From: a virus
IMG/VR virus record: IMGVR_UViG_3300036861_000719
Coordinates: 1-35,748 of that record
DNA: 35,748 nucleotides
Strand: one strand, 5' to 3'
Shown piece by piece: positions 3,625 to 32,625 of this stretch (positions within the stretch are counted from its first letter, which is position 1; each line of letters begins with the position of its first letter). Both the position numbers and the translations under genes were made by a program. The notes under the pieces were generated by a model. That model did no database searches. It was not told where the DNA came from and saw only the letters and a program-made list of their open reading frames with translations.

Positions 3625-4949
3625 CAGACGGAGATGTTGTAGTAGGCGACCGGGGAGACGTTGACCTCGAGCGTGACCATCGCGTAATCGCCGTTCAACG
3701 GTCTGATCAGGTAGGAGAGCCCTTCGACGTAGAATTCGCTGCCGCCGAAACCGCCGCCGCCCGGGTGCGTGGTCGTCAGCGCGATGATGTCGCTGATGTC
3801 GATTTTGGTGAGCAGATCCCAGTTGGCGGTTGCACGGTGATCGTCGGGGCGGAGCGACTTGAACACGATCTTGCTCAGCCGCGGCACCGGGGCGGCGTAG
3901 TTGTCGACGATGTATTGCGCGAACGTCTTGCATTCGTCCTTGGCGTTGTTGCCGGTCGTGGTGCCCGCCTGGACGATCAGGTTCGGCGCCGACCAAGGCC
4001 GCACGCCGAACCGGGCGATCGACGTTCCCAAGTCCTGGATCACCTGGCCTGGCAGGTAGATGTCTTTCAGGCCTTTCGGGTAGGCGAGCGCGACGTTGTA
4101 GATGAACTGTGTTGGTTGCGCGAACCCGAGCTCGCGGATCTGCGCGGTGTCCGGGTCGTCCGCTATGGCGGCGCCGTCACCGGCTTTCCAGCGGTGGAAG
4201 TCCCAGTCGTTTCCGGGCTGCGCGGCGATGGCGTCCGGTGTGAAGCGCGAGAAGCGACCGTGGAAGCAGAAGCGGCCTAGGCGGTCCATGTACGTGTTGG
4301 CGACGTCCGGGAATTCGGCGTCGGCGGCGTCCTGGATGATGCTCAGGAACGACGTGCCGGGGTCGTACACCATCGGCTGCACGTCCACGTTGCCGGTGAA
4401 GACGCGGCGGAGTCCTGATGGCCAGCCTGCGTCTGTGAGCGCCTGGATGATCCTGACTTGGACGCTGCCGTCCTCGTAGAAGACCATGCCGTCGGAGCCT
4501 TCCGCGCCTGACGGCGGCGGGTCACCGGCGAGTCCCGGTGCGGCCTCTGCCCGTGTCAGGTAGTCGAATCCGTCGACGAGCGGGATCGCGTCACGGGTGA
4601 GGATCTTGGACGGCGCGACCTCTGATTGCTCGTCATCGGTGAAGCCGCGGAAGATCGTCTGCCATTCGGTCGTGACAGGGTTGTAGAGGTCGATCCGGCC
4701 TTGTCTGCCGATGATGTCCGGGTAGGCGGCGGACGGGTTGGTGGGGTCGAAGTCGCCGGCAATGTCGTTGATGGGCGTGTTGGCGGTGCCGGTGCCGGTG
4801 CGGTTGAACTCGTCTTGCCGTCCCCGGTCGATCGTGACGCCGGTCGCGGCGACAAGGTCTGAAGGGATTTGCGTCCAGGTGGGGTCGGCGGCGAGCATGC
4901 CTTCGCTGTCCTCGAGCGCGAGGTAGAGGCGCAGCCCGCCGTCCGGCAT
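3624..4949 (-). CDS. Minor/distal tail protein
   Basis: The 441-residue protein begins [20 protein letters not shown] and has [36 protein letters not shown] and [18 protein letters not shown]. This beta-rich arrangement and its position after the tape measure fit a distal tail or baseplate hub protein. The C-terminus is [17 protein letters not shown]. The stop overlaps the next ATG (TGATG). Confidence 0.72.
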
Positions 4950-7496
4950 TTAGGCGAGCCCGAGCCGGTGTCCTGGATGTCTGCCGCGCCGCTGCGAGTT
5001 GGTGCGGCGCGCTCTGCGCTGCTGCGTTTTCGTCAGGGCAGGCTCGATCCGTTTCCCGTCCAGGTACACGTTCACGCTCACGTCCGTGCCGCCCAGGTCT
5101 GGTAGCGCGAACCCGAACGCGCTGAAGCCTCTGCCGGGGGTGACGCCGCCGGGGCCGAGCTGCGAGACGCGGCCCTGCAGCTCGCGCAGCTGATCGGCTG
5201 TCAGGCCGAGACCGCCCAGCAGCGCGGTCAGGTTCGCTTTGCGGAACTTGGTCTTCAGGTTGTCCGTGTTCTGCGACAGCTGCCGGTTGACGTCGCCCAG
5301 CAGCTGCTGGATCGTTCGGCGCACATCAGCGCTCATGCCGCCCAGACCGTCCTTCAACGCTTTCCGGATCCGGTTCAGCAGCCCCTTGGTCTTGTCGGTG
5401 TCCAGGAACGTGCCTTTGACGGCGGCGCTGACGGTGAGCAGCTCTTTCTGCAGCCGTTTCACGGTCGGCACGATCGGTTCCCCGGTCGGGCCGAGGCCGA
5501 GGACGCGGAACTGTCTGGCGCTTCGCTGCTGCGCGAGCAGCTCGTTGGTCTGCTGCCGGTTCTCGAACAGCTGGCGCAGCAGGTCTGTGCTTTTGCCTTC
5601 CGACGCGATCCGCTGTTTGATGGCGGCCTGTTGAAGCGCGACGATGCGTAGGTCGTCGCGGAGCGTGCCTGTGATCTGGGCCTGCTCGAGCCGGAGGCTG
5701 AGCGCGTCTGCTATCGCCTGGTTGCCAGCCTGGACGGCGTCCTTGATGTTCTGCGCGAGCTGCTCACGGTCGCTCTTGATCTGCCGGAACACGTCGCGTA
5801 GTTGTCCTTCCAGTGTTAGCCGGCGCGTCACGTCCTTTGTTGCAGCCAATCTCTTCTGGATCAGACCGGCGATCTTCTCCAGCGCACTGATCTGCGCCTG
5901 CAAGCTCGTCTGGTCCTGAACGAGATCCTGCAGCCGACCGATCGACGCGTCGAAGAACTGGTTGCGCTGAGTGGCCGTCAACGGACGGGAAGGTCGCCCG
6001 GTGGCTCCGGTAAACCCTCCCTGACGAAGCCTCTCCGCGAACGTGGGAGCCGCCGGCACGACCGGTAGCCCTTGACTTGCTTGCAGCCATTTACGGAAAT
6101 CCGCGACCATCTGCGAAGACACAGACGATCCTGTGCGCCCGAGCTCTCTTAGCTTCTCGATGATCCTGTCGAGCGCCTGAACTTCAAGGCCATGCTCGCC
6201 ACGAAGCTTGGCGAATCGAGCGCGGATCTGCTCCACGTCTTCCACGTTCGCGTCAACAGGAATCTTGATCTCGGCGCCGGTGAGAAACCCGAGACGGTGG
6301 CTGCGCAGGAAGTTCGTGAGCGAGCGGTCGATCTTGTCCTTGTTCAGCAGCACCTCGACAGCAATGGCGATCGTCCCGATCGCCGCCAGCCGAAGCAGGC
6401 TAAGACGGAGAGCGACTGCGCGCCCCTCTGCTCCCTTCATGCCGATCGCAAGATCCGCCAGCCCGGTTACCCAGCCGCTCAGCCGTGACGCAACTTTGAT
6501 GGCGATCAGGCCGAGCAGCGCGTTACGCAAACCGCCGACGAGCCCCACCAACGGAGCGGTCACGGACCGCACAGTTTGCAGCACGCCGATGAGCGCTTTG
6601 AGAACACCAAGTCCCGCCTGCACGGTATCGCTGAGTTCGCGCTGGATACGCTCCTGATTCGCCGTGGAAGAGAGCCACGCCGCAGCCTTGTTCACGTACG
6701 CGGTCAATGCTGGGATCAACCCTTTACCGAGGCGCGCCTCGAGATCGGCGACCGCGGCCCGCAACTTGGAGGTAGCGACGCTGAGGCTGCCTGTGTTGCG
6801 GGCGACGTCTCCCTGCTGCAGCTTCGTGTCCTTGAGAATGATGTTGTAGGCGGCCTGCACCCTCTGGGCGGTAGTCAGATGCTTCGAGGTCTTGGCGATG
6901 CCGTCCGCGACCGCCTCCTCACCGATCCTGGCCTGGGAGAGGAAGACGCCGAACTGGCGTAGCGGCCGCACTTGGCCGGCGAGGCCGGATTGCAGCGCCT
7001 CGAGCACCTGGGCTGGGCTGACGTTGTTGAACGAGGCCATGTCGGCCGCCAGCTCGACCAGCCGCTCGCTCATTTTCGCCGCTGCTTTCTCGCCGAACCC
7101 GAGCGGACGCAGCATGTTCCCGAACACACCTGAGGCCTGGAGCGCGGCTGCCTCCGAAACGCCGAACGAGTTGCTCAATGTCTGCGCCCAGGATTGCACC
7201 TGCCTAGCGTTCCGGCCGAACACTATGCCGGTCTTCTCGGTCTCTTCCTGCACCTTCGAGGCTTCGCTCACGATCGACTTGAGCGCGATCACGACGCCAG
7301 CCCCACCCAGGAACTGGGCTGACGCGAACGTCAGCGCGCGTGACAGGCCGCTGATCCGCAGCGTGGCGGCTAGCGCACCCCTAGAGGTGCGGTCGAGGTC
7401 GCGGCCGAACACTTTGGCGCCCGCGCTCGAACGCTGGAACGAACGCAGCAGCGACCGCTCGTCCCCGACGACCTCGACGACGAGCTTGCGCGCCAT
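4950..7496 (-). CDS. Tail tape measure protein
   Basis: The 848-residue protein sets tail length. The N-terminus (LVVEVVGDERSLLRSFQRSS) and the block ASFNNVSPAQVLEALQSGLA, then GQVRPLRQFGVFLSQ, match the TP901-like tape-measure domain. The middle has helix-rich stretches and a hydrophobic segment near residue 365 (LRLAAIGTIAIAVEVLL). The C-terminal half has coiled-coil blocks (LRIVALQQAAIKQRIASEGK). Length predicts a tail near 120-130 nm, using the usual 0.15 nm per residue. The next gene begins right after its stop. Confidence 0.9.
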   Translation of the reverse strand: MARKLVVEVVGDERSLLRSFQRSSAGAKVFGRDLDRTSRGALAATLRISGLSRALTFASAQFLGGAGVVIALKSIVSEASKVQEETEKTGIVFGRNARQVQSWAQTLSNSFGVSEAAALQASGVFGNMLRPLGFGEKAAAKMSERLVELAADMASFNNVSPAQVLEALQSGLAGQVRPLRQFGVFLSQARIGEEAVADGIAKTSKHLTTAQRVQAAYNIILKDTKLQQGDVARNTGSLSVATSKLRAAVADLEARLGKGLIPALTAYVNKAAAWLSSTANQERIQRELSDTVQAGLGVLKALIGVLQTVRSVTAPLVGLVGGLRNALLGLIAIKVASRLSGWVTGLADLAIGMKGAEGRAVALRLSLLRLAAIGTIAIAVEVLLNKDKIDRSLTNFLRSHRLGFLTGAEIKIPVDANVEDVEQIRARFAKLRGEHGLEVQALDRIIEKLRELGRTGSSVSSQMVADFRKWLQASQGLPVVPAAPTFAERLRQGGFTGATGRPSRPLTATQRNQFFDASIGRLQDLVQDQTSLQAQISALEKIAGLIQKRLAATKDVTRRLTLEGQLRDVFRQIKSDREQLAQNIKDAVQAGNQAIADALSLRLEQAQITGTLRDDLRIVALQQAAIKQRIASEGKSTDLLRQLFENRQQTNELLAQQRSARQFRVLGLGPTGEPIVPTVKRLQKELLTVSAAVKGTFLDTDKTKGLLNRIRKALKDGLGGMSADVRRTIQQLLGDVNRQLSQNTDNLKTKFRKANLTALLGGLGLTADQLRELQGRVSQLGPGGVTPGRGFSAFGFALPDLGGTDVSVNVYLDGKRIEPALTKTQQRRARRTNSQRRGRHPGHRLGLA

Positions 7497-27135: not shown

Positions 27136-27365
27136 GCCTGCTCCTCAAGGATCCGTCGGGCGTCGCCAAGCACGGCTTCGGCGGCGTCGCACCGGTGCCC
27201 CTGCGAGCTACACGGCTGGTCACAATACGAGCAGTGCCAACCCATGCACGGGCCGAACTCGAAGGAGCCGTCGTCGCGGCGGGCGACCATACGCGTGCAA
27301 CGCACACAACCGAGTTTGCCCCGGTAGGCGAGCGGGCCGACCAGCCGGTAGCCGGGAACGTTCAC
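27132..27365 (-). CDS. Small double zinc-finger-like protein
   Basis: The 77-residue protein shows GCVRCTRM, GPCMGWHCSYCDQPC and GHRC, about eight Cys/His ligands, enough for two zinc sites. The C-terminal helix is EAVLGDARRILEE. The GTG at 27365 is preceded by AGGCGG. An ORF extending to 27482 is possible but lacks a good start. The stop overlaps the next GTG. Function unknown; a nucleic-acid or protein-binding role is plausible for this type. Confidence 0.6.
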   Translation of the reverse strand: MNVPGYRLVGPLAYRGKLGCVRCTRMVARRDDGSFEFGPCMGWHCSYCDQPCSSQGHRCDAAEAVLGDARRILEEQA

Positions 27366-27439
27366 GACCGCCGCCTGCTGATCGCCCACGCCGGCAGGAA
27401 CAACACGGACGCCTCCAACAGCTGCAACACGAGCGTCAC
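27362..27439 (-). CDS. Putative 25-residue hydrophobic mini-protein
   Basis: The GTG overlaps the preceding TGA (GTGA) and the TGA overlaps the GTG at 27365. The peptide is one hydrophobic segment (TLVLQLLEASVLFLPAWAIS) followed by RRR, a typical minimal membrane anchor with positive inside end. It could be a membrane micropeptide or only a coupling ORF. Evidence is the overlap pattern and the composition. Confidence 0.35.
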   Translation of the reverse strand: MTLVLQLLEASVLFLPAWAISRRRS

Positions 27440-27570
27440 GCGGGCCGCCCCGATAGCTTGTGGGCGGATGCGCCGGAAACACCCCGAAGGGCTGTTGACG
27501 CCTTAATACCGCTTCCCGGCCGGGAGCGGCTTGGCTGCGCGGGTTGGGGTGGGGACACTGTTTTCAGCAT
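27436..27570 (-). CDS. Putative 44-residue coupling ORF
   Basis: ATG two bases after the upstream TAG, as in the 24-residue ORF at 28129. The first 16 residues follow the same pattern (ML-T-S---Q-AQ-SRS) because both derive from the 61-bp repeat. The rest is Ser/Gly/Ala-rich and unlike a folded domain. TGA overlaps the next GTG. Real translation is uncertain. Confidence 0.3.
   Translation of the reverse strand: MLKTVSPPQPAQPSRSRPGSGIKASTALRGVSGASAHKLSGRPA
27509..27529. repeat. Palindromic hairpin next to repeat B
   Basis: CCGCT-T-CCCGG followed by CCGGG-AGCGG gives ten complementary pairs with one bulge. No T run follows on either strand. It could be an RNA hairpin or a binding site for a dimeric protein. 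Confidence 0.5.
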
Positions 27571-27584
27571 GGCTACGTTTGTGA
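27524..27584 (-). repeat. 61-bp direct repeat, copy B
   Basis: This is the second copy, starting in the last codons of the gene ending at 27573. The copies lie 559 bases apart in the same orientation. It borders a palindrome at 27509-27529, which copy A lacks. Confidence 0.75.
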
Positions 27585-27749
27585 GTCCGTGATCAGATCG
27601 ATCGGCTCGTCCGGATCCTCACCGTCGAGGAGCATTTCGATCACGACCGCGGCGCGCATGAGCAGCTTGGCCAGATCGGTTATCCCTTCGGCCAGAATGA
27701 TCCGCTGTGATTCCAGTCGGAGTCTGTCCGGCAGTTCCCGACTACTCAC
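27573..27749 (-). CDS. Small acidic helical protein
   Basis: The 58-residue protein has a helix around ITDLAKLLMRAAVVIEMLLD and the acidic tail GEDPDEPIDLITDSQT. GTG start follows the third copy of the junction module. The frame is open further up to a GTG at 27806, but that segment overlaps the mini-ORF above. Its last three codons (Ser-Gln-Thr) and stop lie in the second copy of the 61-bp repeat. Confidence 0.5.
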   Translation of the reverse strand: MSSRELPDRLRLESQRIILAEGITDLAKLLMRAAVVIEMLLDGEDPDEPIDLITDSQT

Positions 27750-27763
27750 AGCGCCGCCACCTT
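27745..27763 (-). repeat. Junction module, copy 3
   Basis: On the transcript, AAGGTGGCGGCGCTGTGAG. It ends the 26-residue mini-ORF (KVAAL-stop) and starts the gene at 27749. It shares 28 of 36 bases with copy 2 including flanks, by my count. Confidence 0.65.
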
Positions 27764-27826
27764 TGATTCCATAGAGCAGCGAAGTTCCTTGATGCAATGC
27801 GAACACCAGTAGCGTGATTCACGCAC
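27746..27826 (-). CDS. Putative 26-residue cysteine-containing mini-protein
   Basis: The GTG overlaps the end of the preceding gene by eight bases and the TGA overlaps the next GTG (GTGA). The peptide contains RYWCSHCIKELRCS, a CxxC plus a third Cys that could bind metal, and ends SKVAAL-stop like the integrase. It fills what otherwise looks like a 69-base gap. It is short, so confidence rests on the coupling pattern. Confidence 0.4.
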   Translation of the reverse strand: MRESRYWCSHCIKELRCSMESKVAAL

Positions 27827-28058
27827 GACCTTGTGCGTCCTTCTCGACGAATCCCCAATCGCTCCAGCAGATTGGGCCATCCGGGTGATACCAGCCGTTC
27901 CTGACCCAAGCCGCAGCAGCATTGAGCCGGTACTCACTGATGAAGGCGCTACCAAGTACGGCCGCGCGCGCCAACGCATCGCTTTCTGACAGCCACACCG
28001 AGTCGATGTTTTCGCTCTCGTAATCTGGCTGACTGACAATAAACACGGGTTGGCTCAC
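27819..28058 (-). CDS. Small hypothetical protein
   Basis: The 79-residue protein begins SQPVFIVSQPDYESENIDSV, followed by an Ala-rich helix (SDALARAAVLGSAFISEYRL) and a Trp-rich end (AAAWVRNGWYHPDGPICWSD). A GTG start is preceded by the GGCGGC-containing junction module. I see no known family. The upstream extension of the frame is an out-of-frame shadow of the preceding gene. Confidence 0.5.
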   Translation of the reverse strand: MSQPVFIVSQPDYESENIDSVWLSESDALARAAVLGSAFISEYRLNAAAAWVRNGWYHPDGPICWSDWGFVEKDAQGRA

Positions 28059-28072
28059 AGCGCCGCCAGCTT
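28054..28072 (-). repeat. Junction module, copy 2
   Basis: On the transcript, AAGCTGGCGGCGCTGTGAG. It ends the 24-residue mini-ORF (KLAAL-stop) and starts the next gene. Similarity to copy 3 continues upstream for about 17 more bases. Confidence 0.65.
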
Positions 28073-28129
28073 TCGTACAACAGAGCGGCTTTGCTGCGCG
28101 GATTGGTGTAGGGAGAGTGTCGCCAGCAT
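28055..28129 (-). CDS. Putative 24-residue coupling mini-ORF
   Basis: The ATG lies two bases after the upstream TAG. The frame ends RKLAAL-stop, with the TGA overlapping the GTG of the next gene. It fills the gap between the genes at 28467-28132 and 28058-27819 exactly. Its first 16 codons come from the 61-bp repeat and its last seven from the junction module. It may only keep ribosomes in place for re-initiation. Confidence 0.35.
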   Translation of the reverse strand: MLATLSLHQSAQQSRSVVRKLAAL

Positions 28130-28143
28130 GGCTACGCTTGTGA
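28083..28143 (-). repeat. 61-bp direct repeat, copy A
   Basis: This copy and copy B share 51 of 61 bases by my count. It runs from the last three codons of the gene ending at 28132 through the following gap. The conserved core is CAGCATGGCTACG plus GAGCGGCTT and GCTGCGCGG. It lies within 400 bases of the integrase stop. It may hold integrase sites or be a duplicated gene boundary. Confidence 0.75.
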
Positions 28144-28467
28144 CGCCTTCTCGTCGTCCAGCTCTTCCGACCAGCTGGCGGTGATGATCTGTCCGCCTGG
28201 CGTGTGCAGGCGTTCCTCGGTAACGATTCTCCGACCATCGCGCATTGTCTCAGTGCGTTCCCCGACGATCCAGGGTGATGCTGCCCGGTCGGGTCCCGTA
28301 AGTCGCGGTGGTTTTGCTGGGGGAGCCCACCTGCCATCAACCACGCATACCGTTGCGAAAGGCGCCACCAGTTGCACATCCGGCGGTATCGGGTCTCCCT
28401 CGGAGAGCTGCACGACGATCTCTTCGTTCGTATCGATTCTCCAGGCTGGAACGTGCCACACGCTCAT
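28132..28467 (-). CDS. Hypothetical protein downstream of integrase
   Basis: The 111-residue protein has strand-rich N-terminal text (WHVPAWRIDTNEEIVVQLSE), a proline-rich middle and RDGRRIVTEERLHTPGGQII near the end. ATG overlaps the integrase stop. Its last three codons lie inside a 61-bp sequence that recurs after the gene ending at 27573. No family recognised. Confidence 0.55.
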   Translation of the reverse strand: MSVWHVPAWRIDTNEEIVVQLSEGDPIPPDVQLVAPFATVCVVDGRWAPPAKPPRLTGPDRAASPWIVGERTETMRDGRRIVTEERLHTPGGQIITASWSEELDDEKASQA

Positions 28468-28481
28468 AGTGCCGCCACCTT
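28463..28481 (-). repeat. Junction module, copy 1 (integrase stop)
   Basis: On the transcript this reads AAGGTGGCGGCACTATGAG. It encodes the integrase C-terminus (KVAAL-stop) and contains the GGTGGCGGC ribosome-binding-like stretch and the start codon of the next gene. Copies 2 and 3 differ by only three and two bases. Confidence 0.65.
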
Positions 28482-29369
28482 CTTCGCTACGTCTTCGATT
28501 GTGAGCGTGCCGTAATATTTGACGGTTGTGTTGATGCTCTCGTGCCGCATCATCAGCCGGCGCTCCTCGAGATCGAACCCGAGCTCGCGCAACCTATGCC
28601 CGAATGTGTGCCTGGTCTGGTGTGGGTTGAGGTAGCGGACGCCGGCGACCTGGATGCCGCGCGTGTACCAGCGTTCAAAGGTGGTGTCGGCGATCGGGTC
28701 GCGGCGCAGCCGGCGCGAGCCACGTCTCGTGTACCAGTAGTGATCTGTCGCGTTCAGCCGTTCGAGCAGGTCGAGGTCGGCGAGCGCGGTGGCGGCGTCG
28801 GGGAGCGGGACAATGATGCTGTCTTTCTGCCCTTTGCCTTGGTAGACGATCAGACGGTTTCGTTTCAGGTCGATGTGGTCGCGGCGCAGGTGGCGGGCCT
28901 CGCTACGGCGTAGGCCGGTGCCGAACAGGAGCGCGAACAGTTCGCCGTCCGGGGACGGGAGCGCCTCCAACAGGGCTTGCTCCTCGGCGCTGAAGATGTC
29001 TTTCGGGCGGCCTTTGGGTGCGCGCATCCTGGCGACCTTGTCCATCGGGTTGCGCGGCACCCGGTCTTGCTCGTAGGCCCAGCGGAACCAGCTGTTGTAG
29101 ATCGACCGGGTGATGTGGCGGGACTGGCGCGGCACGGCGGCGAGCGCGTCCTCGATCTGCGCGGCGGTGAACTCGTGCAGCTCAAGCTGAGGGTAAGCGC
29201 GGAGAAGAGGGGCGACCTGGCGGACGTACTGATAGAGGGTCTTGGCCGCTTTGCCTTCGAGGTCTAAGCGGACGAGCCATTCGGCCAAGTCCCCGGCGGC
29301 CCGTGCCTCCATGTGCCGGAGATCGCGCAGGTAGCCGGGAGCATACGCCCTGTGGGCGATCGCGCTCAT
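28464..29369 (-). CDS. int: Tyrosine-family site-specific recombinase (integrase)
   Basis: The 301-residue enzyme would integrate or excise phage DNA, or resolve multimers. The N-terminal SAM-like core-binding domain spans about residues 22-105. In the catalytic domain the visible residues are R154 (GTGLRRSEARH), K179 (GKGQKD), H250 and R253 (HQTRHTFGHRLRE), H276 (MRHESINTT) and a nucleophile Y285 or Y286 (VKYYG). All expected residues are present. The short length and lack of an N-terminal arm-binding domain make it XerC/D-like in architecture. It is co-oriented and coupled with genes on both sides, so it would be transcribed with the long leftward operon. The last codons (KKVAAL-stop) form the first copy of a junction sequence repeated downstream. 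Confidence 0.93.
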   Translation of the reverse strand: MSAIAHRAYAPGYLRDLRHMEARAAGDLAEWLVRLDLEGKAAKTLYQYVRQVAPLLRAYPQLELHEFTAAQIEDALAAVPRQSRHITRSIYNSWFRWAYEQDRVPRNPMDKVARMRAPKGRPKDIFSAEEQALLEALPSPDGELFALLFGTGLRRSEARHLRRDHIDLKRNRLIVYQGKGQKDSIIVPLPDAATALADLDLLERLNATDHYWYTRRGSRRLRRDPIADTTFERWYTRGIQVAGVRYLNPHQTRHTFGHRLRELGFDLEERRLMMRHESINTTVKYYGTLTIEDVAKKVAAL

Positions 29370-29653
29370 CCCGTCTCCTTGTCGGCGTCAAGAGGAATGT
29401 GCCGACGTACCTCCGTGACCGCTTCCCAGAAGCGACTTAGGTCATTCAGTTCGGTCTCGCGGCCTGTCGGCGGATACGTGGGATTGGGCAGCATCGTCTT
29501 TGTGCGCACCCACCATTCTTCGCCGTTCCAGTCGACAGAGACGACCTCGATGAGGCAGCGGGCGGGCGGGTTATCGAGTTCCCAGACCCAGATCGATCCG
29601 ACGCGTGGTGTGTCTGCGTTCCGGTTGTAGCTGTTGGTGATCCGTTTAGCCAT
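29366..29653 (-). CDS. Small hypothetical protein, SH3-like
   Basis: This 95-residue protein contains VGSIWVWELDNPPARCLIEV and VDWNGEEWWVRTKTM, a strand-rich pattern like a small beta-barrel, then a helical C-terminus (ELNDLSRFWEAVTEVRRHI). It starts at an ATG overlapping the upstream gene by eight bases, and its stop overlaps the integrase ATG (ATGA). It is therefore translated together with the integrase. I cannot call it an excisionase: no HTH is visible. Confidence 0.55.
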   Translation of the reverse strand: MAKRITNSYNRNADTPRVGSIWVWELDNPPARCLIEVVSVDWNGEEWWVRTKTMLPNPTYPPTGRETELNDLSRFWEAVTEVRRHIPLDADKETG

Positions 29654-29843
29654 TCGCCTCTCCCGTCTGGGACGGAACGCGCCGACGACCTGAACGCCGC
29701 TCCCACCAACGCACCCATTCCTCGGAAGGGATCTCGCCAGTGATCCGCGTAGCGCAAGAGGGGCACTCCATCGCCTGCCGCGTGTGACCGTATTCGCAGG
29801 GCGGGTTGATGATGCGTCTCCCATCGCGAGCGAACTCAGACAT
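29646..29843 (-). CDS. Small putative zinc-binding protein
   Basis: This 65-residue protein has a CEYGH ... MECPSC arrangement, giving three Cys and one His that could hold one metal ion. A basic, Trp-containing tail follows (EEWVRWWERRSGRRR). The ATG at 29843 overlaps the end of the upstream gene by eight bases. A longer upstream extension in this frame is a shadow. Function unknown; it is one of about ten small Cys-rich proteins in this genome. Confidence 0.5.
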   Translation of the reverse strand: MSEFARDGRRIINPPCEYGHTRQAMECPSCATRITGEIPSEEWVRWWERRSGRRRVPSQTGEANG

Positions 29844-30207
29844 CCGGCTCGCCCGTCTGGGACGACAACAACGAAAAGAGGAACGCTTCGCCTGCGATTG
29901 TCGAGCGTGTCCAGCCCTCGCCGGTCTCATCGCGCACCGTTTGGATCAGCCCGCGTTCATGGGCGAGTGTCCACACGTCGTCACCGACTGCGTCACCGGC
30001 TGAGTTCTCGGTCGTGTGCGTTGCGAGCGCCACGGCGATTGCCAGCCTCAGCGCTGCGTCTTTGCGGGCGAGAGAAGCGAGGAGCGCGGAGATATCTTCG
30101 GCAATATCTCGGCGTTCTTGCCGGGTGAGCACGATCTCGTCGTCATGCAGCAGTTCGATCATCGCCTCGGCCCGCTCGCCGCTGCCCTGGTCGGTGACGC
30201 CGCTCAT
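29836..30207 (-). CDS. Hypothetical protein
   Basis: This 123-residue acidic protein has the ATG overlapping the upstream stop (ATGA). The central helices (DEIVLTRQERRDIAEDISAL, LASLARKDAALRLAIAVALA) are followed by a more polar C-terminal half (DDVWTLAHERGLIQTVRDET). It has the look of a small phage accessory protein. No motif or catalytic signature is visible. Confidence 0.55.
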   Translation of the reverse strand: MSGVTDQGSGERAEAMIELLHDDEIVLTRQERRDIAEDISALLASLARKDAALRLAIAVALATHTTENSAGDAVGDDVWTLAHERGLIQTVRDETGEGWTRSTIAGEAFLFSLLSSQTGEPDV

Positions 30208-30392
30208 GGGGAAGTCTTCTCGTACGTGTTTACCGTGTCTTCGGCTAACTGCTCAGCGCCCTCACGGACGGCAGATGCCATCGCTCTAGATGCACGCTCG
30301 GGGTCGGCGCCGAGTCGGATCGCCGATTGGAGAATGCTGGCGGCTTCATCCACGCGCCTTTGTGCTTCGCGTGCCACGCTTTCGCCGCTCAC
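30204..30392 (-). CDS. Small helical hypothetical protein
   Basis: The 62-residue, probably all-helical protein contains REAQRRVDEAASILQSAIR and ERASRAMASAVREGAEQLAE. GTG start and TGA stop are both in four-base overlaps with its neighbours. Charged amphipathic helices suggest an oligomeric or binding role, but no family is recognised. Confidence 0.55.
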   Translation of the reverse strand: MSGESVAREAQRRVDEAASILQSAIRLGADPERASRAMASAVREGAEQLAEDTVNTYEKTSP

Positions 30393-30634
30393 GGGGAAGC
30401 CTCCGACCCAGGCGAGACAGGAACGTCCATCCGCGACAGGCACTCCGGGCAAGTGACGTCCATCCACCTGACATCGGTTATCCAGTCATGCGTCGCGTTG
30501 GGACCTCGCGCTTGCTGTTCAGGCGTCAATGCCCAGAGTCCGCACAGTGTCTGCCACGTGCCCTCAGTGGGCATGAAGTGAACGAGTTTCCGTCCTTGTT
30601 CGCGAGTGCGGGCAGCAGCGACGTCAGAAGACAC
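30389..30634 (-). CDS. Small zinc-knuckle-like phage protein
   Basis: This 81-residue protein has the arrangement HFMPTEGTWQTLCGL ... WMDVTCPECLSRM. A His followed by a TxCG motif and later VTCxxCL is a pattern I associate with short actinobacteriophage and actinobacterial proteins that probably bind one zinc ion. The function is unknown. GTG start at 30634 overlaps the upstream gene by 11 bases, and the stop overlaps the next GTG (GTGA). The upstream part of this reading frame is low-complexity and lies over another gene, so I excluded it. Confidence 0.6.
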   Translation of the reverse strand: MSSDVAAARTREQGRKLVHFMPTEGTWQTLCGLWALTPEQQARGPNATHDWITDVRWMDVTCPECLSRMDVPVSPGSEASP

Positions 30635-30848
30635 GGGCGTCCCTCTCGATGCTCTCGGGCTTGACGTACCGGATCGCCGTCTCGCCATCCGCCTTCGACA
30701 CGCGGATCTTGATTCGCTTGGCGGTTTGTTTGAGTACGCGGCAGGGGATGCGCGGCTCATAGGCGTAGCGGCTGCGGGCTTCGCGTATCCGCACGTCCGG
30801 GTAGTCGTGGCGCGAGGGTTCGTCCCGGGCACGGACATCAGCGGTCAC
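30624..30848 (-). CDS. Small basic hypothetical protein
   Basis: This protein has 74 residues, with a GTG start overlapping the lyase stop (GTGA). It is rich in Arg and charged residues. The central part (RVLKQTAKRIKIRVSKADGE) followed by TAIRYVKPESIE reads like a small beta-barrel or SH3-like fold. The longer frame upstream is a shadow of the lyase gene. No function can be assigned. Confidence 0.55.
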   Translation of the reverse strand: MTADVRARDEPSRHDYPDVRIREARSRYAYEPRIPCRVLKQTAKRIKIRVSKADGETAIRYVKPESIERDARVF

Positions 30849-31831
30849 GCTGTCACTTCGCTCTGGAGGCCTGCCTCGAGGATCCTGACGCCGTACCGGT
30901 GCTGTTTCCCGTCCTGCGGGCGACCGATACGGACGGAGTTCGCCGATGGTGACAGGGACGGATGCCGTTTTCCGTCCGTGAGCACGTCTGCCCCGTCGAG
31001 GAGTGGCACGAACCCGGCTTGTGTTGGGGGAGGTGTCCAACCCAGGGTGACCACGGTGGCAGTCAGCGCGGTTATGTCTAGCGCCAGTGGCACGGGAGGC
31101 GCTGCTCCGTAGAACGCGAGCGTCTCGTCCCTGGTCGAGCCGCGCACCGACCCGTCATGCAGGATCACCGTGTCCGTGGCGGCGCTGCCGTACCAGCCGA
31201 GTTCCGTGTACAGCGGCTTCGGGTTCGTCACACCCGCCGCAGTGCAGTAGGGGATCGTCGAGACACCGCTTTTCGACCAGGTCGGCGACGCAGGGAACGC
31301 CTGCTGCCCGGTCGCGTCCACCCGGTATTCGACCAGGCCCGAAGTCTTCGAGAACCTGATGTGCACGAGCACATCGACCCACTGGTTCATCGGCGGGACA
31401 CTTGACAGCACGTTGGCCGGGTACCAGACCGGCCAGCCTTGCCCGATCACGCCGTCCCCGGCGGCCAACCGGCATTTCAGCTGCCCTTGGTGGCGGATGA
31501 GTGCGTGCGGCGCCACCCCCAGATTCGACAGGTTGTACAGGTCCGACTGGTGGTGCAGTTCCCAGATCAGCCCGTCGTTGTTCGGCATCTGGAAACTGAC
31601 CCGGTACCACCATTCCTGCCCGTCTGCTTCGCCTGTGTCGTAGCGGGCGCAGAGGCAGCGGGTGCCCGGCGCGCCGCCGAACGTGTCGCCAGGACGGACA
31701 AGTACCCGCGCGGACGGCTTGCCTCTGCGACCGCTGGCGAGATACGAGAGTTGCGCTGTGACGTCGTGGCATTCGACCGCGCTGAACGCGGAAGCGTCCG
31801 CCTTGTCGAAAGTGAGGGCGAGCAGGCTCAT
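30845..31831 (-). CDS. Polysaccharide lyase-like protein (heparin-lyase-I/alginate-lyase fold)
   Basis: This 328-residue protein resembles the Polysacc_lyase (PF14099-like) jelly-roll family. Diagnostic stretches are ARVLVRPGDTFGG, EWWYRVSFQMPNNDGLIWEL, HHQSDLYNLSN, WVDVLVHIRFSKTSGLVEYR and LYTELGWYGS. Such enzymes cleave acidic polysaccharides by beta-elimination. Here the enzyme could be a depolymerase that opens capsule or exopolysaccharide. The last 90 residues (TALTATVVTLGWTPPPTQAG) look like a fibronectin-III-type beta sandwich. No signal peptide is evident. I chose the ATG at 31831, which overlaps the preceding stop; an ATG 15 bases upstream is less likely. It is unusually far from the tail genes. 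Confidence 0.7.
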   Translation of the reverse strand: MSLLALTFDKADASAFSAVECHDVTAQLSYLASGRRGKPSARVLVRPGDTFGGAPGTRCLCARYDTGEADGQEWWYRVSFQMPNNDGLIWELHHQSDLYNLSNLGVAPHALIRHQGQLKCRLAAGDGVIGQGWPVWYPANVLSSVPPMNQWVDVLVHIRFSKTSGLVEYRVDATGQQAFPASPTWSKSGVSTIPYCTAAGVTNPKPLYTELGWYGSAATDTVILHDGSVRGSTRDETLAFYGAAPPVPLALDITALTATVVTLGWTPPPTQAGFVPLLDGADVLTDGKRHPSLSPSANSVRIGRPQDGKQHRYGVRILEAGLQSEVTA

Positions 31832-32625
31832 GTCAGGCTTTCCCATCTTCCGATTTCGCTGACCGGCACACGGTCAAGCAGATAGACCAAGTACGGGCCG
31901 GTTAGGTACGGCCGGTACGTGTTGAACGTCACCGCCAGCGGCGCGTCCGACCAGACGCCGGCCCCTAATGTGGGGATCGCACGGCCGAACCCCTCGAGGC
32001 GCGCGTGCTCGCAGCACACGTCCGGCCGCCACCTCGCGTCCGCGTTCATGTACGCCTCCGGCGACCCGATCGCCGTCCCCAGCCGCTGCCAGCCGGCACC
32101 GTTCTGAAACCAGGGCAGCCCCTGCACGACGTCCGTGTCGGTCACGTGTGGGGCGAGCTGCGCTGGTGTGACCAGGTCGACGCGCTCCAGGTTGAAGATC
32201 GCGGATTTCGCGCCCAGTTGCTGTTTCGCCCGCACTAGCGCTTCCGCTTCGGCGAGCGAGTCGATCGGCGACCATGGCACCACCGCTAGTCCCCATGCTT
32301 GGGCGAGCTCGATCCATGAGCTCCAGGACGGCAAGCCCTTTCGGACGTTCACGGCGAGCACCGTAAAGCCCGATTGCGCGATGACGGCGACGCGTTCCTT
32401 CTCGGAGCCCATGCCCGGGTTGTCCGCCTGCCAGCCGGAACCTGCGTAGACGCCGTAGTTGGGAATCGGAATTGGCTTAGGGCGTCTCTCTGCGAGGCAT
32501 GACCAAGCCCACTTGGGGATCAGCGGCGGGATCCCGGCGGGCCGTTCAGCGCGGATGCCGCCGGCGAGCCGCCACCGTTCCCAACGAAAGAACCAGAGTG
32601 GTAGCTTCGCGGGGCAAGCGGTCAC
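31828..32625 (-). CDS. Hypothetical protein, possible beta/alpha barrel
   Basis: This 265-residue protein of unknown function has a basic, Trp-rich N-terminus. It then shows alternating strand-helix units: VAVIAQSGFTVLAVNV, IELAQAWGLAVVPWSPID, LVRAKQQLGAKSAIFNLE, followed by short strands (DVVQGLPWF, RPDVCCEHARLEGF). The pattern resembles a TIM barrel of the glycoside-hydrolase or DUF1906 kind. Candidate acidic residues are in NLERVD and PWSPID, but I cannot assign catalysis. The gene is coupled to the polysaccharide lyase downstream (ATGA), which favours a role at the cell or virion surface. A tail-associated or lytic enzyme is a guess. Confidence 0.55.
   Translation of the reverse strand: MTACPAKLPLWFFRWERWRLAGGIRAERPAGIPPLIPKWAWSCLAERRPKPIPIPNYGVYAGSGWQADNPGMGSEKERVAVIAQSGFTVLAVNVRKGLPSWSSWIELAQAWGLAVVPWSPIDSLAEAEALVRAKQQLGAKSAIFNLERVDLVTPAQLAPHVTDTDVVQGLPWFQNGAGWQRLGTAIGSPEAYMNADARWRPDVCCEHARLEGFGRAIPTLGAGVWSDAPLAVTFNTYRPYLTGPYLVYLLDRVPVSEIGRWESLT

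Follow-up and report, generated by a model that had tools for sequence, protein, structure and literature searches.

In a 35.7-kb viral record from IMG/VR (the window, by which we mean the whole stretch of DNA analysed), small genes follow the integrase gene in one orientation and their junctions share sequence. Where do these repeats come from, and how was the array assembled? Terminase, portal and capsid genes are recognisable in the window. Its terminase shares about 37% identity with the one of Rhodococcus phage REQ1, and the phages sharing this integrase family are of the actinobacterial type. On the minus strand, the locus is composed of the following features, and a non-coding stretch follows the second 61-bp repeat. 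J denotes the junction sequence and R the 61-bp repeat.

28464-29369, minus strand: tyrosine integrase, 301 aa, whose 3' end (...KKVAAL-stop) is the left array boundary (PF00589, 9e-22; phrog_1, 2e-39).
28463-28481, minus strand: junction copy 1, the integrase 3' end, whose TGA overlaps the ATG of gene A (19-mer match).
28132-28467, minus strand: gene A, 111 aa, an orphan ending in SQA-stop (no Pfam, PHROG or PADLOC match).
28083-28143, minus strand: first copy of R, the gene A end plus attP-arm-like sequence (alignable with the L106 sequence that precedes the core, score 23, 0/300 shuffles).
28054-28081, minus strand: junction copy 2, an integrase-3'-end-like scar (VVRKLAAL-stop) fused to R, whose TGA overlaps the GTG of gene B (19-mer match and reading in the integrase frame).
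27819-28058, minus strand: gene B, 79 aa, an orphan (no Pfam, PHROG or PADLOC match).
27746-27826, minus strand: candidate 26-aa Cys-rich mini-ORF with a GTG start, ending in a KVAAL-stop scar, probably not a gene (called from the letters).
27745-27763, minus strand: junction copy 3, a putative integrase-3'-end scar, 18/18 with the L106 integrase end, whose TGA overlaps the GTG of gene C (19-mer match).
27573-27749, minus strand: gene C, 58 aa, an orphan ending in SQT-stop (no Pfam, PHROG or PADLOC match).
27524-27584, minus strand: second copy of R, the arm of a probable attP (repeat alignment and shuffles).
27514-27525, minus strand: perfect 12-bp palindrome TCCCGGCCGGGA between R and the core.
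27498-27506, minus strand: probable attP core TTAAGGCGT, which reads AAAGGCGT in seven relatives (conserved position).

The integrase carries the PF00589 domain and the catalytic R, H-x-x-R, H and Y of tyrosine integrases; R154, H250, R253, H276 and Y286 are invariant in five relatives. The likely overlapping starts are ATG at 28467 for gene A and GTG at 28058 and 27749 for genes B and C. None of the cargo genes has a Pfam, PHROG or PADLOC match worth naming as to function. No homologue of gene A was found in the relatives or in IMG/VR, and none of gene B in IMG/VR; among sequenced phages, no match was found for gene B or for the array DNA.

The repeats are well above chance expectation. With up to 3 mismatches allowed, the 19-mer AAG[GC]TGGCGGC[AG]CT[AG]TGAG is present at three sites in the window (28463-28481, 28054-28072 and 27745-27763), all within one 737-bp stretch, where 0.11 sites are expected by chance, and at no others. 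The two copies of R are identical at 51 of 61 positions (84%), a level reached in 0/100 shuffles, and the window contains no further copy. Both start in the final codons of a gene (SQA-stop and SQT-stop), and most of each lies downstream of the stop. The initial annotation had described three shared junctions and a common 61-bp gene end, and had asked whether such repeats occur at random elsewhere; both descriptions are borne out, and outside the array the window holds no copies. Overlaps of the NTGA type are common in the window genome, which is what could make GC-rich compact gene junctions look alike by chance. This explanation is refuted by the counts for both repeats, and an independent scar in the phage L110 (see below) speaks against it as well. 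When junction sharing was scored across the whole window, the array pairs lead, and one other pair (30207/30392) scores comparably.

For comparison, alignment-based scans together with G017 provided seven phages with integrases 38-67% identical to that of the window at the amino acid level: L106 (67%), L107 (61%), L102, L110 and L114 (43-45%), and L104 and G017 (38-39%). By its sequence, the 19-mer is the 3' end of the integrase gene itself. The L106 integrase ends in RKVAAL-stop (VARKVAAL-stop) in the same DNA as the window junctions; junction copy 3 agrees with this end at 18/18 bases and with the end of the window's own integrase at 16/18. Read in the integrase frame, the two mini-ORFs yield the integrase C-terminus, VVRKLAAL-stop at copy 2 and SKVAAL-stop at copy 3. 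The K[VL]AAL-stop text previously noted at the end of both mini-ORFs is thus confirmed and traced to the integrase, while their standing as genes is not: as the sequence shared by the junctions is the 3' end of the integrase, they are probably in the main integrase-tail scars. It is possible that the GTG-started, Cys-rich peptide of 26 aa at 27826-27746 is a real product. Upstream of J, non-coding repeat is joined to copy 2 and a sequence of unclear origin to copy 3, where a shuffle test found no significant similarity to R. A G017-type core joined to J was considered as the origin of copy 3 and dropped, as 78/300 shuffles were equally good.

Since the integrase tail carries an overlapping ATGA/GTGA start, it would serve as the start region of the gene that follows, and the cargo starts would then depend on J. 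The last integrase codons are accordingly predicted by the scar reading to act as a portable start region. J might instead be a functional regulatory element, a translation signal repeated and kept by selection at several genes, and each copy does lie exactly at an overlapping start codon. We regard this as quite improbable: there are three copies only, all of them in the array, and the homology in L110 runs along integrase codons, far ahead of any ribosome site. In IMG/VR, the exact 19-mer occurs at six loci elsewhere, some of them in tail-gene motifs and none with a related array. The initial annotation had been reminded of the start-associated sequences of cluster K mycobacteriophages, where the 13-mer GGGATAGGAGCCC is found at many genes genome-wide and is kept across subclusters (PMC3203893). 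Like these, the array repeat is short and sits immediately at gene starts; unlike them, it derives from integrase codons and is confined to the array. With a different sequence and three copies in a single 737-bp stretch, it does not belong to that class.

The right boundary is found at a conserved position. AAAGGCGT (in the window TTAAGGCGT) lies downstream of the integrase in 8/8 phages, 66-957 nt past the integrase stop. The exact 8-mer AAAGGCGT occurs 10 times on both strands of the eight contigs (275 kb), and seven of the ten occurrences are at this position. The 78 nt before the core are alignable, with 0/300 shuffles reaching the score, between the window and L106, L102, L110, L114 and G017, and between L106 and both L104 and L114. 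The 61-bp repeat of the window is this alignable stretch, beginning near the cargo stop codon, and in the relatives R likewise occupies a fixed place, from the last stop codon toward the AAAGGCGT core. In L107, an excisionase-like HTH gene on the opposite strand (4877-5167, minus strand; HTH_17, 2e-17; phrog_66, 8e-15) lies between integrase and core and replaces the cargo. As the stretch of R and core adjoins the integrase, with an excisionase-like gene beside it in L107, we read it as the probable attP, composed of arm and core.

Neither attB nor attL or attR turned up, and the genome contigs searched yielded no prophage relative. A tRNA as attB was considered and discarded, as there is no tRNA in the loci. 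Direct repeats of the attachment-arm type around the core were not above control in the family. In L114 (5612-5685), CCCCACTCTC flanks the core at -50 and +13 and may be an arm-type repeat; it is not general in the family. The palindrome TCCCGGCCGGGA of the window (27514-27525) was not seen in the relatives. R was also considered as an RNA element and rejected: it has no supported structure, no Rfam match and no terminator-like site by the rule of the tool. An extra scan with the R pattern revealed no new phage.

Between these two boundaries, gene content varies. The interval from integrase to core holds no gene in L102 and L104, one in L106 and L114, two in L110 and G017, and three in the window; in L107 it holds the excisionase-like gene. 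No homology was detected among the nine forward cargo genes. L106 shows the order integrase (ending RKVAAL-stop), one unrelated gene, a homologue of R, and core. The integrases of L102, L110 and L114 are 69-79% identical and their flanks are homologous, yet the interval contains zero, two and one genes, respectively. Both the L102 and the L110 contig carry direct repeats of 127 bp at their ends and therefore look like circular genomes in which the site is intact. Judged from these comparisons, the integrase-attP interval of this phage family is a hotspot at which unrelated small genes are inserted. The proposal that small genes are exchanged between conserved boundaries, for which a check of relatives for gain, loss or shuffling had been advised, stands insofar as small genes are gained, lost and replaced there, exactly between the boundaries. 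What changes is the nature of the boundaries: the left one is the integrase 3' end and the right one an attP-like arm, not a dispersed regulatory element. Likewise, the integrase, formerly described as the first member of the array, remains its first boundary by virtue of its 3' end.

A second scar is found in L110, which belongs to a subclade different from that of the window, with integrases ending in LVGDRV-stop and LVGGAA-stop. Here the order is integrase, gene 1, a second, diverged integrase 3' end of about 60 nt (DSHPNMDELGDRVLSLVGDAA-stop), gene 2, R and core, and the stop of this second integrase end overlaps the start of the next gene. The scar matches the L114 integrase at 48/58 positions and the integrase of its own phage at 45/60 (scores 38 and 30, shuffle maximum 14). 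It is also found by BLASTN from L102 (58 nt, 79%, E 3e-7) and from L114 (53 nt, 85%, E 3e-11). The L110 scar is a case independent of those in the window. Scars occur in these two phages only; the cargo of G017 and L114 has none.

We consider it probable that the interval is a hotspot at which the array was built by stepwise recombination between related phages, leaving scars of integrase ends and attP arms. For the nature and order of the crossovers, we infer the following. The left boundary J would be the last integrase codons, with the cargo start overlapping the integrase stop (ATGA/GTGA), and the right boundary R, as the attP arm, would start near the cargo stop codon and extend to the AAAGGCGT core. 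Phages of the types int-A-R-attP, int-B-... and int-C-R-attP would have undergone out-of-register recombination close to these borders. One phage would have contributed all sequence through the end of its cargo gene, or through its R, and this would have been joined to the integrase tail of the other phage. The join would have to fall upstream of the start region of the next gene, and a piece of integrase tail would hence be kept. Each crossover would retain the resident gene and add one gene, with the integrase tail carrying its start region, and one scar. In the window, integrase-end scars would thus be left at 28054-28081 and 27745-27763 and one R at 28083-28143. Illegitimate recombination and joining over short homology would both be compatible with this scheme.

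Outside donors are favoured because the scars match the integrases of other phages slightly better than those of the phages that carry them. As the difference amounts to a few bases only, there is a rival, which we hold to be unlikely: integrase end and attP arm would have been tandemly duplicated inside a single genome, and the genes separating the copies replaced later. Such a duplication would fit repeats that are clustered in one orientation and scars of the same clade as the host integrase; apart from the closer matches to other phages' integrases, the turnover of genes between phages seen in L102, L110 and L114 argues against it. For the window itself, no close pair with and without the insert was found, and no donor phages for the array.

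The position of the array between an integrase and its probable attP, and the regularity of its units, might also point to the integrase as the agent. Acting on the attP core and, in another copy of the phage, on the 3' end of its own gene (AAAGG / GAAGG), it would recombine the two and add units of gene plus R in an integron-like manner; J does contain an AAGG-like sequence as the core does. The fusions, nevertheless, have no common recombination site. Their join points differ, being R with J at copy 2, a sequence of unclear origin with J at copy 3, and gene 1 with 60 nt of integrase in L110, and this argues against a single site cut by the integrase. The L110 scar begins about 60 nt before the stop, in a clade whose integrase ends lack AAAGG, and copy 3 does not significantly resemble the arm that precedes the core. 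Capture of cassettes by the integrase is therefore very unlikely. The same slight probability attaches to a cassette system carried by the phage, where the integrase would capture small genes at attP and at the 3' end of its own gene and stack them, its tail giving each of them a ready-made translation start. In integron gene cassette arrays, too, a tyrosine recombinase gene adjoins small genes that all point the same way, and the cassettes are defined by a shared joining site (attC). The array resembles them in the former respect but its units have no shared attC-like site, and its genes follow the integrase 3' end in the same orientation. The suggested kinship with cassette arrays of this type is thus not upheld, the L110 scar breaking at a different place.

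Recombination between phages at the hotspot has a close precedent with the same signature. In the cluster I mycobacteriophage Island3, the orphan gene 68 and its neighbour, gene 67, have a 60-bp 3' end in common; the close relative Brujita has a single copy and lacks gene 68 (Pope et al. 2011, PMC3029335). In our case, too, an orphan small gene lies beside a gene with a duplicated 3' end: orphans are flanked by copies of the upstream gene's end at J copies 1-3 of the window and at the L110 scar. The counterpart of Brujita, a one-copy relative with homologous flanks and without the insert, is L102 (no gene) as compared to L110 (two) and L114 (one). In Island3, the duplicated end comes from a non-integrase gene and there is one insert, whereas here it is that of the integrase, the interval ends at a probable attP, a copy of the attP arm is duplicated as well, and up to three genes are stacked. 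The exchange of small modules between short common borders is also shared with phage mosaicism at conserved boundary sequences, as discussed in the same paper (PMC3029335); here, by contrast, the origin of the borders is identified, namely the integrase end and the attP arm.

The array is thus largely explained as a variant of a known mode of gene acquisition in phages, with unusually readable scars. How single small genes enter phage genomes without disrupting compact overlapping operons has mostly to be deduced from completed mosaics. In this family, scars of single events can still be read, independently in two subclades, with their source (integrase end) and right border (attP arm) identified and an empty-site relative available in one of them. 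The integrase-attP interval is also a place to seek short accessory or prophage-expressed genes in actinobacterial phages.

The viral contigs nearest to the window by terminase lack its integrase, with the exception of G017 (40-42%). The terminases of L008 and L010 are 85% and 80% identical to that of the window, and neither the window integrase nor the array genes found a match on these two contigs. The only matches there were an HNH gene, on the L008 contig, and a weak one to 30845-31846, on the L010 contig. Among the close terminase relatives L008-L028, nearly every contig starts some 150-400 bp ahead of the terminase gene, suggestive of a fixed genome end there; the window runs across this point.

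Two further gene-end junctions were observed upstream of the integrase. At 29648-29674 and 29838-29864, successive genes share a 27-nt 3' end (85%; ...SQTGEANG-stop and ...SQTGEPDV-stop) at overlapping starts, a candidate gene-end scar of the Island3 67/68 kind. A small gene also lies between two copies of a 20-nt junction repeat (90%; 30198-30217 and 30383-30402), with the ends TSP-stop and ASP-stop followed by [AG]TGAGCGGC; the anchored junction score of this pair, 14, is the second best in the window.
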